The notes below the pieces were generated by a model. It made no database searches. It was given only the letters and a program-made list of their open reading frames with translations, and was not told the DNA's origin. Below are positions 3,746-5,701 of a stretch of DNA of 18,251 nt, in pieces. This DNA is from an uncultured Roseovarius sp. GTDB lineage: Bacteria > Pseudomonadota > Alphaproteobacteria > Rhodobacterales > Rhodobacteraceae. The first letter of the stretch is position 1. Each line of letters begins with the position of its first letter. The stretch spans positions 1 through 18,251 of the forward strand of contig CAKSUL010000037.1 in NCBI GenBank assembly GCA_934501475.1, in the 5' to 3' direction. The translations under genes and the position numbers were made by a program.

Positions 3746-3777
3746 CCTTTCCCTATTATCCACAAGAAAAAGCAGTA
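3746..3777 (+). repeat. Left terminal inverted repeat of the IS1595-type element
   Basis: This pairs with the right end at about 5671-5701 through a shared TATTATCCAC core and a following AGAA-AAGCAG block. The first two bases are CC where the other end has GG, which suggests decay or alteration at the very tip. Confidence 0.75.
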
Positions 3778-3831
3778 AACGTGCCGTGCCTGCGGGCGAC
3801 AGCGTTGCGGGCTAAATGGACGAATCTGCCA

Positions 3832-4455
3832 TTAACTTTGCGCAAGCCCATTTGCGATAGTTGGCGCCTTGGTCCAGTGAATATCTGACTGGACATGGTC
3901 CGCGCGAACGTATTTTCCCATTCGATACGGCATCTCGTCCTCCGGGAATGACCCGGCAATCCGGGCGACGAAACCTTCTTGCCGGTCCAGATCCATAGCC
4001 TTCGCTAATTCTTCCAGCAAACCGTCTCTATACGCTCCTCGATAGAGCGTCGGCACCGGTTGAATGCCCAGCTCCATGAACCGCGCCAGTGTCGCGTCCC
4101 AAGGCTGAACTATATCCTCTATGATCCACGCGAAGCCGAGGAAGTAAGATGGGAGCGTGTCATAGCTGACCGAATGTCGGGCATAGAGGTTCTCGCCAAC
4201 AATCCGTTCCCCCTCAGACATCTGGGGTGATACGCCTGCGGCGAAAGCCTTCAGCCAGTCACGTGACGGGTGGTAGCGGCTGTCAGGGCTCCGCGCATGG
4301 CAGCCACCAGCATGGATGGTCGTGTTCTCCCCATCCATCTTTTCCGTGATAACGAGATCGTCCACGAAGAGACCTTCGAGCGACAACATCCGCTTGTCGT
4401 CGCTGGTCGCACCGGGCGAGATCGGGAGATGAAAGGTGCGGCCGTATTTTCTCAT
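3832..4455 (-). CDS. Single-domain RNA ligase (nucleotidyltransferase fold), transposon cargo
   Basis: The 207-residue protein has the covalent nucleotidyltransferase motifs of RNA ligases (RNA_ligase family, T4 Rnl2-like). Motif I is TEKMDGEN with predicted adenylated Lys K39. HARSPDSR (53-60) and GENLYARHS (87-95) follow. A motif III-like YFLGFAWI starts at about 104, motif IV is EGFVARI (160-166), and motif V is centred on K181 (GKYVRADH). It would join RNA ends using an AMP-lysine intermediate. It is shorter than phage and Deinococcus ligases, essentially the catalytic domain plus a short tail ending in APTIANGL. The gene lies inside the inverted ends of the IS1595 element, 67 bp after the transposase stop and on the same strand, so it travels as a passenger. 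Its ribosome site is weak (GGG just upstream). All key residues are present, so it looks intact. Its biological substrate (tRNA, cleaved RNA, or transposition-related RNA) is unknown. Confidence 0.85.
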   Translation of the reverse strand: MRKYGRTFHLPISPGATSDDKRMLSLEGLFVDDLVITEKMDGENTTIHAGGCHARSPDSRYHPSRDWLKAFAAGVSPQMSEGERIVGENLYARHSVSYDTLPSYFLGFAWIIEDIVQPWDATLARFMELGIQPVPTLYRGAYRDGLLEELAKAMDLDRQEGFVARIAGSFPEDEMPYRMGKYVRADHVQSDIHWTKAPTIANGLAQS

Positions 4456-4522
4456 GCACCCGTGATAACAGGTTGGTCAACCACCGACCATGGGTTCTTG
4501 GCGGACCTCCCGTGTGACAGCT

Positions 4523-5548
4523 TCATGGCCATCGTAATCCCCACGAGGGTGTGCGTCTCATCTGACGGCCGACAGCCTCGCAGAGCAGCCCCCGCATTTG
4601 GTCCACGACAGGGATTGGCTTCCATAAGGTGACGGATTCGACGAATGAGAGACCCGAAGAAGACTTCCGCTTCCTCAACTTGGTTTCGGGGACCCGATGG
4701 TTCCACCGCCAGATGATCTCGTCCAGATACCGCTGGAGATGGTTCCGTCCCAAGCGATGATACACACCGATCAGGGCGCGCTGGACGACCGCGTTTACGG
4801 CCTCGGCAGTGTTGATATGCGCGCCAGTCTTCCTGTTGGCATACTGGCGCTTGTTATGCTGAACGGTGAGATGGCTGGCGAAAGTGGTTCCGGTCTTTCG
4901 GTAGCTGGAGTTCTTGTCGGTGATAAGCACGGAGTCCCGGTCGATCCAATCCTCCACAATGGGCTTCATCGTGCTTCCCTGGGCGTTCGGGATCAGGACC
5001 GCTCGAGCCTGACCGTTCCGCGCGGCAGCAACGAGGGCAATCGGCTTGCCAGTTCCTCGCCCACGCTTGTTCTTGACGCCATGGCGGAACTTGGGCCTCC
5101 CGCCGACGAAGGCCTCGTCGACCTCGACGGCTCCCGACAGCCGACCGGCAATGCCCTGCCGATCATCCATCATCTCGCGGATGGCATGGCCGAGCTTCCA
5201 CGCGGTCTTCTGGTTCACGCCGCGCATGCGTGCCATTACGACAGACGAAATTCCCTTTGAGGACGTCAACACAAGAAACATCGCCGCAATCCAGATTCGC
5301 AGATCGAGTTTGGTCGCGTGGAGTGGCGTCTTGGTTGTTACAGTGAACTGCCTGCGGCATTCCTTCTCGACGCACTGATACAGTCCGGGGCGAACGGACC
5401 TCCCATGCAGCAGACGCGAACTCAGGCTGCCGCAATGCGGACAGAACCGATCATCACCCCAGATGGCGTTCTCCAAGTAGAGGCGCGCATGGCGCTCGGT
5501 CGGCATCTTCTTCCAGACGTCGCGGAGGGATTTCAGTTCGGTTATCAT
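4523..5548 (-). CDS. IS1595-family (ISXO2-like) transposase
   Basis: The product is about 341 residues. An N-terminal zinc ribbon (C-x2-C near residue 37, then C-x4-C near residue 60) precedes the ISXO2-like DDE domain. The acidic/amide triad is visible as VEVDEAFVGG (first Asp, about residue 145), LITDKNSSY (second Asp, about 212) and HINTAEAVN (Asn at about 247, the family's usual third residue). The downstream GVYHRLGRNHLQRYLDEIIWRWNHR is the conserved C-terminal signature. The enzyme would cut and join the inverted ends at 3746 and 5701. I chose the ATG at 5548 because GAGG sits seven bases upstream; a TTG codon immediately before it is a possible alternative. No frameshift or internal stop is seen, so the transposase looks complete. 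Confidence 0.9.
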   Translation of the reverse strand: MITELKSLRDVWKKMPTERHARLYLENAIWGDDRFCPHCGSLSSRLLHGRSVRPGLYQCVEKECRRQFTVTTKTPLHATKLDLRIWIAAMFLVLTSSKGISSVVMARMRGVNQKTAWKLGHAIREMMDDRQGIAGRLSGAVEVDEAFVGGRPKFRHGVKNKRGRGTGKPIALVAAARNGQARAVLIPNAQGSTMKPIVEDWIDRDSVLITDKNSSYRKTGTTFASHLTVQHNKRQYANRKTGAHINTAEAVNAVVQRALIGVYHRLGRNHLQRYLDEIIWRWNHRVPETKLRKRKSSSGLSFVESVTLWKPIPVVDQMRGLLCEAVGRQMRRTPSWGLRWP

Positions 5549-5670
5549 CAAGTAGCCTCACTTTGGATCGGAACCCAGAAGATTGGCCGATTCCTCCGAA
5601 CCAGAAGCGTCTACGTCGTGGCAGAGCTGAGGCCTTTGCGGGGCAAGAGAGGCTGAGCGTTGCCGAGAAA

Positions 5671-5701
5671 GCTGCTTCTTCTGGTGGATAATAAGGAAAC
5701 C
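5671..5701 (-). repeat. Right terminal inverted repeat of the IS1595-type element
   Basis: On the minus strand it begins GGTTTCCTTATTATCCACC and continues into AGAAGAAGCAG, matching the left end at 3746-3777. Its outermost GG overlaps the foot of the neighbouring terminator hairpin. Confidence 0.75.

Follow-up and report, generated by a model that had tools for sequence, protein, structure and literature searches.

What does an RNA ligase gene do inside a transposon, and does it serve the element or the host? The question is raised by an 18,251-nucleotide stretch of DNA from an uncultured Roseovarius sp. (GenBank assembly GCA_934501475.1, contig CAKSUL010000037.1, positions 1 to 18,251; hereafter the window), in which the genes for an IS1595-family transposase and a single-domain ligase of family PF09414 stand together between inverted ends. 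The explanation that we consider best, with a probability of about 0.78, is that they form a complete IS1595 unit transposon, part of a Rhodobacterales lineage with an exchangeable slot, in which the ligase is a likely host-benefit passenger, predicted to self-adenylate at Lys39 and to seal RNA.

Structure of the Element

The unit comprises positions 3751–5696 of the window (1,946 bp) and is bounded by 25-bp terminal inverted repeats, CCCTATTATCCACAAGAAAAAGCAG at the cargo side (3751–3775, plus strand) and CCTTATTATCCACCAGAAGAAGCAG at the transposase side (5672–5696, minus strand), which match at 22 of 25 positions. These ends are flanked by an exact 8-bp direct repeat, the target-site duplication AAACCTTT (3743–3750 on the cargo side and 5697–5704 on the transposase side), which therefore defines the borders of the unit. 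A preliminary description of this DNA, made from the sequence alone, had placed the element at 3746–5701; its inverted ends do enclose both genes, but those borders extend beyond the unit by 5 bp of the repeat on each side. When 60 random sequences with matching dinucleotide transitions served as a control, their best end pair matched at 20/25 and no pair of at least 20/25 was accompanied by an 8-bp repeat, as compared with 22/25 and an exact repeat in the real 2.5 kb.

Both genes lie on the minus strand with intact reading frames, the ligase gene (3832–4455, 207 residues) following the transposase gene (4523–5551) after a spacer of 67 bp (4456–4522), so that an intact ligase enclosed with the transposase, and behind it on the same strand, was described correctly at the outset. 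The transposase is 342 residues long from a TTG start, or 341 from an ATG one codon downstream, which is the annotated length of a sister coding sequence, and it matches the IS1595-type models PF12762 (8.2e-40), PF12760 (1.4e-9), and NF033547 (2.8e-49), all above cut-offs.

Among the best 60 of 354 plasmid records, the nearest named IS1595-type element was ISPepr2 of Pelobacter propionicus (transposase 42% identical in amino acids), with ISRm32 of Sinorhizobium (34%) also present. Both share 8-bp duplications and similar ends with the window element, which carries the terminal inverted repeats and 8-bp target duplication of the IS1595 family. The same script showed that the ends of ISPepr2 (1,081 bp) and ISRm32 (1,190 bp) close 8 bp after the transposase stop, leaving no cargo slot.

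The Ligase Unit in Mameliella

The best 80 of 236 relatives of the ligase in genome contigs included one, L001 of Mameliella sp. MMSF_3455 (genome G001), whose ligase is 94% identical in amino acids to that of the window and is enclosed by the same ends in a unit of 1,040 bp. The flanks of L001 have no similarity to those of the window, and the two copies are therefore at different sites. The preliminary description had raised the possibility of the same pairing at different insertion sites; the ligase unit does occur at two unrelated sites, but the transposase of L001 is largely deleted and its target duplication matches at 6/8. The two segments into which the blastn alignment of L001 falls overlap by 13 bp, and this overlap is formed by the 13-bp direct repeats of the window (4502–4514 and 5395–5407; 893 bp apart, 12/13 identical), the first copy being one border of the deletion. 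Because of this overlap, L001 appears to have arisen by deletion of most of the transposase between the repeats.

The ligase of L001 is intact and differs from that of the window by 26.5 synonymous and 13.5 non-synonymous changes, giving synonymous (dS) and non-synonymous (dN) divergences of 0.209 and 0.029 and a ratio of 0.138 for this single pair. Purifying selection thus appears to have maintained the ligase even after loss of the transposase, which points to a benefit for the host. No further transposase-ligase pair was found among 18 genomes from the genus of G004, among six from that of G001 (L001 apart), or among the resolved sister elements. The genome that holds L001 also contains a lone cargo-side end module (G001:C80:553–604, L094) with no transposase or ligase beside it.

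Sister Elements and Their Cargo

When the transposase half was used as a DNA query against 394 genomes from the family of G001, 37 genomes gave matches, of which some were short or confined to the ligase. Four plasmid matches (L096, L097, L098, and L148) and 14 longer stretches were added, and both ends and the duplication were located by script. This resolved 16 Rhodobacterales elements at both ends, the window and L001 included, with the same type of cargo-side end throughout and exact 8-bp duplications in all but L001 and L110 (each 6/8). Apart from the L001 fragment, the sister transposases are 59–86% identical to that of the window. In 14 elements the slot, measured from the transposase to the far end, spans 457–5,125 bp, and a blastn comparison of 14 slots with each other (all but L001 and L148) matched only L107 with L110; across the 16 elements the contents are unrelated apart from two pairs.

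The cargo is correspondingly varied. The slots hold a 149-residue orphan (L096), a DUF1992 protein (PF09350; L102), an R2K ATP-grasp protein (PF14243) preceded by a frameshifted transposase (L104), a SMI1/KNR4 protein of the SUKH group (PF09346; L105), a 104-residue membrane-type protein (L107; decayed in L110), orphans (L109 and L114), or a protein whose TPR match falls short of the curated cut-off (L131), and other elements carry Usp and a SulP transporter (L097), an alkyl sulfatase and others (L132), RsgA, GNAT, and a MerR-methyltransferase (L133), SDR and LysR (L135), or HTH and HipA (L148). L096 and L102 have sister transposases (support 100/99) with unrelated cargo. Between the window and L096, the transposase half and ∼50 bp of the cargo-side end, including its inner part at 3776–3800 (blastn), are alike and the cargo is different; this end module is also recognizable by eye in L102 and L131, perhaps to 70 bp. 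Since sister slots hold unrelated genes and two ordinary IS1595 elements have no slot, the ligase is likely one exchangeable passenger, and a role for it in transposition is unlikely.

Passenger genes in IS1595 elements are known, as the preliminary description had noted, and PMC3129680 terms such elements "transporter IS" (insertion sequence), citing Siguier, Gagnevin, and Chandler (2009). As in those elements, an IS1595 transposase and ends, an 8-bp duplication, and a passenger unrelated to transposition (the ligase, 3832–4455) are found within one pair of ends, and the unit occurs at different sites; the differences are that the cargo is an RNA ligase and that all 16 resolved elements have an extended slot with mostly unrelated contents. 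No IS1595 element with an RNA ligase was found among the literature matches listed, where the single paper containing both terms concerns a ciliate genome. As far as the literature searched can tell, two features are new: an RNA ligase as cargo, and a lineage in which the slot mostly holds unrelated genes from one element to the next.

Loci that are fragments, run into contig ends, or lack a second end with a good duplication were not counted as resolved (L098, L106/L141, L112/L134, L113/L136, L115/L137, L116/L138, L117, L119–L123, L127, L128, L139, L140, and L142–L144). L140 and L141 had weak end pairs and were dropped, and L118, L124–L126, L129, and L130 had no transposase match.

Two of the plasmid insertions have further features. 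On a Sulfitobacter faviae plasmid (L148:4846–8052), the duplication ATAGCAAA is exact and the HTH and HipA-family genes are a likely toxin-antitoxin pair. On a Limimaricola variabilis plasmid (L097/L151; L151:4136–10903), the element with Usp and SulP is flanked on one side by a nucleotidyltransferase/hypothetical pair and on the other by a SAVED-domain gene, so that the whole resembles a cyclic oligonucleotide-based antiphage signaling system (CBASS) operon split by the insertion.

The Ligase Protein

The PF09414 profile matches the ligase over model positions 2–171 of 171 (E = 3.6e-23; 83 bits against a cut-off of 27), and the predicted AMP acceptor is Lys39. Invariant in 36 aligned sequences are T37-E-K39-M-D-G-E-N44 (motif I), Glu88 (motif III), and E160-G-x-V163 (motif IV). 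The place of motif V is occupied by K181-Y-V-R and not by K-x-K. The claim that all nucleotidyltransferase motifs are present is thus nearly correct, motif V being the exception.

The fold is nearest to those of T4 RNA ligase 2 (Rnl2) and Naegleria gruberi RNA ligase, both of which have a second domain, and neither these nor any other PDB entries were matched by sequence (phmmer or profile). Rnl2-type ligases have a C-terminal domain after motif V, whereas the window ligase ends 26 residues after K181; Rnl5-type ligases have an N-terminal OB domain before the catalytic domain, whereas the active lysine of the window ligase is at position 39 of 207. The protein thus belongs to neither type. The 342-position family phrog_24030 matches it only from position 135 on.

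DRB0100 of Deinococcus radiodurans likewise consists of a single nucleotidyltransferase domain and is 40% identical to the window ligase end to end (206 columns), with the active lysine at the same place (K40, as compared with K39). By this full-length similarity and the conserved lysine, the window ligase is a DRB0100-like single-domain protein. DRB0100 self-adenylates, its expression is strongly raised by gamma-irradiation, and it sealed neither DNA nor RNA in published tests. The DRB0100 operon holds a macrodomain protein and an end-healing kinase, whereas the window ligase sits in a transposon without either, and the other eight window proteins scanned match other families.

Within the spacer, the ∼50 bp before the ligase start are similar to the DNA that precedes free-standing ligase genes, a hint that the ligase has its own promoter there. 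TGNTAT occurs upstream in 8 of 11 aligned rows (rows picked by hand and the motif read by eye), and a consensus scan found no sigma-70-like promoter in the region.

Origin of the Ligase Gene

A tree of 85 sequences, made by a quick method, contained the window ligase, 77 of the 80 ligase loci (three with a short match or in-frame stop were left out), and seven database proteins. The window, L001, and the database proteins P0001–P0003, of which P0002 bears the name Rhodobacter sp. NSM, form one clade (SH-aLRT 97), in line with a single capture. No such transposase lies near 79 of the 80 loci (tblastn at E 1e-5, in flanks of at most 6 kb and less where a contig ended). The ligase in relatives that lack the transposase had been named at the outset as a sign against a moving unit if it stood at the same chromosomal position; these 79 loci do lack the transposase, but the ligase was not shown at the window's own position. 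The gene was likely captured once, from a gene common in alphaproteobacteria. No conserved neighbor of the free-standing ligases was seen in the 80 loci (largest cluster 9/80, all Ruegeria), nor was a conserved partner in 80 phage ligase loci (largest shared cluster 10/80).

In Rhodobacter maris (G003), four separate ligase matches were observed, on contigs C9, C40, C22, and C14, two of which are truncated where the contig stops. This number hints that the gene can multiply or move in its free-standing form as well. In 4 of the 80 phage loci (L153, where it lies 616 bp past the start of the ligase, and three others), a second, unrelated protein appears by eye to be of the T4 RNA ligase 1 type.

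Function of the Ligase and Alternative Explanations

The locus could be explained without any unit if an old IS1595 relic and a resident chromosomal ligase happened to lie between end-like sequences. The ligase is indeed common as a free-standing gene, but chance ends were rejected on the exact 8-bp duplication and the random-sequence control, and the same unit at an unrelated site in L001 already contradicts this account, to which we give practically no credence. A role for RNA ligation in the life of the element had been suggested in the preliminary description; the ligase could, for example, seal transposition intermediates or shield transposase mRNA or tRNAs from host nucleases. Its position 67 bp behind the transposase on the same strand, and the occurrence of ligase and these ends together in two genomes, would fit; against this, sister elements with unrelated cargo still show exact duplications, ISPepr2 and ISRm32 have no cargo, and L001 keeps its ligase with a wrecked transposase. 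On the exchanged cargo, the cargo-free relatives, and L001, the ligase as transposition machinery was rejected, and we hold a role in the element's own life to be very improbable.

Two further accounts accept the passenger and differ in what it does, and we regard both as unlikely, to a similar degree, though well ahead of the preceding ones. The ligase could serve defense or counter-defense by repairing tRNA cut by phage-induced or toxin nucleases, the element being a vehicle for conflict genes. Relatives occur at 39–53% identity in IMG/VR contigs (best 80 of 138) and at 33–45% in large phage genomes, where 24 of 30 phage records cover at least 80%; a jumbo-phage survey links such ligases to tRNA repair (PMC7824862); and other slots hold R2K, SUKH, and HipA genes, the SUKH and HipA proteins matching PADLOC candidates weakly (E 0.002–0.003). 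However, several slots carry metabolic or housekeeping-like genes (Usp and SulP, alkyl sulfatase, SDR, and RsgA), no end-healing kinase or phosphatase is in the element, the free-standing ligases have no widely shared partner, and the ligase and R2K protein have no PADLOC model at E 0.01, an absence from the library that carries little weight. Alternatively, the ligase could work on DNA and help to repair host breaks, for which its 40% identity to DRB0100, and the strong induction of that protein by gamma-irradiation in an operon with an end-healing kinase, can be cited.

For the host-benefit passenger in an exchangeable slot, the comparisons suggest the following route. The transposase would act on both ends and move whatever stands between them, and cargo would enter between the transposase half and the cargo-side end module. 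As a guess, new cargo could be gained when the conserved left end and transposase pair or recombine with another copy of the cargo-side end beyond a neighboring gene; this model needs a lone cargo-side end, and the module at G001:C80:553–604 is such an end. The ligase would have been captured from a free-standing alphaproteobacterial gene, together with the ∼50 bp that precede it, and may be expressed from that DNA or by read-through. The protein, a putative single-domain RNA (possibly also DNA) ligase, would act on 5′-phosphate/3′-OH nicks, with host enzymes healing other end types.

Several points weigh against this explanation. Since DRB0100 sealed no substrate in the published tests, the assumed sealing activity may be wrong or dependent on a partner, and motif V is atypical. 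The window holds the only copy seen with both genes intact; the mobility of the L001 copy is less certain because its duplication matches at 6/8 only, and the selection estimate comes from one pair. The duplications of L109 and L104 are T-runs or nearly so, and thus weaker evidence, and the route of cargo exchange is one that we only infer. A donor locus, carrying the same ligase but not the element, was not found. Neither was an empty insertion site, in the 12 genomes best matching the lytic transglycosylase gene beside the element; in these relatives the genes of the window's other flank are not within 1.5 kb of that gene, their matches, where present (7 of 12), being on other contigs or far away.

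A broader proposal, which we put forward tentatively and hold somewhat more likely to fail than to succeed, is that the Rhodobacterales IS1595 branch is a general gene-capture machine, with transposase and left end fixed and the short cargo-side end re-used beyond almost any neighboring gene. If so, single genes, an RNA-repair ligase included, become transposons of 1.6–6.3 kb that need neither integrons nor composite IS pairs nor plasmids of their own to spread. Passenger-carrying IS elements have been described mostly as isolated cases; here one lineage has exchanged unrelated genes in a single slot many times and still shows exact target duplications, and how a simple IS gains cargo becomes testable in one system. 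The compact ligase also provides a route to the true substrate of the DRB0100-like group.

Insertion Site and Neighboring Genes

The element lies at the tail of a hairpin (5700–5727, minus strand; terminator scan) that is the likely terminator of the neighboring lytic transglycosylase gene, whose product shares 92% identity, across 90% of its length, with the corresponding protein of Roseovarius sp. M141, so that a Roseobacter-group host is likely. Four terminator-like sites were found in the region, as compared with 1.7 expected in shuffles. The window as part of a known plasmid was rejected, no plasmid record covering 80% of it and the best among those listed covering 15%, and a search for close relatives of the transposase in viral contigs found none. 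The insertions of the window element, L102, and L105 are all at the tails of terminator-like hairpins, and the target duplications of the window and 14 sister elements (L148 not included) are 84% A+T, as compared with 38% in the loci.
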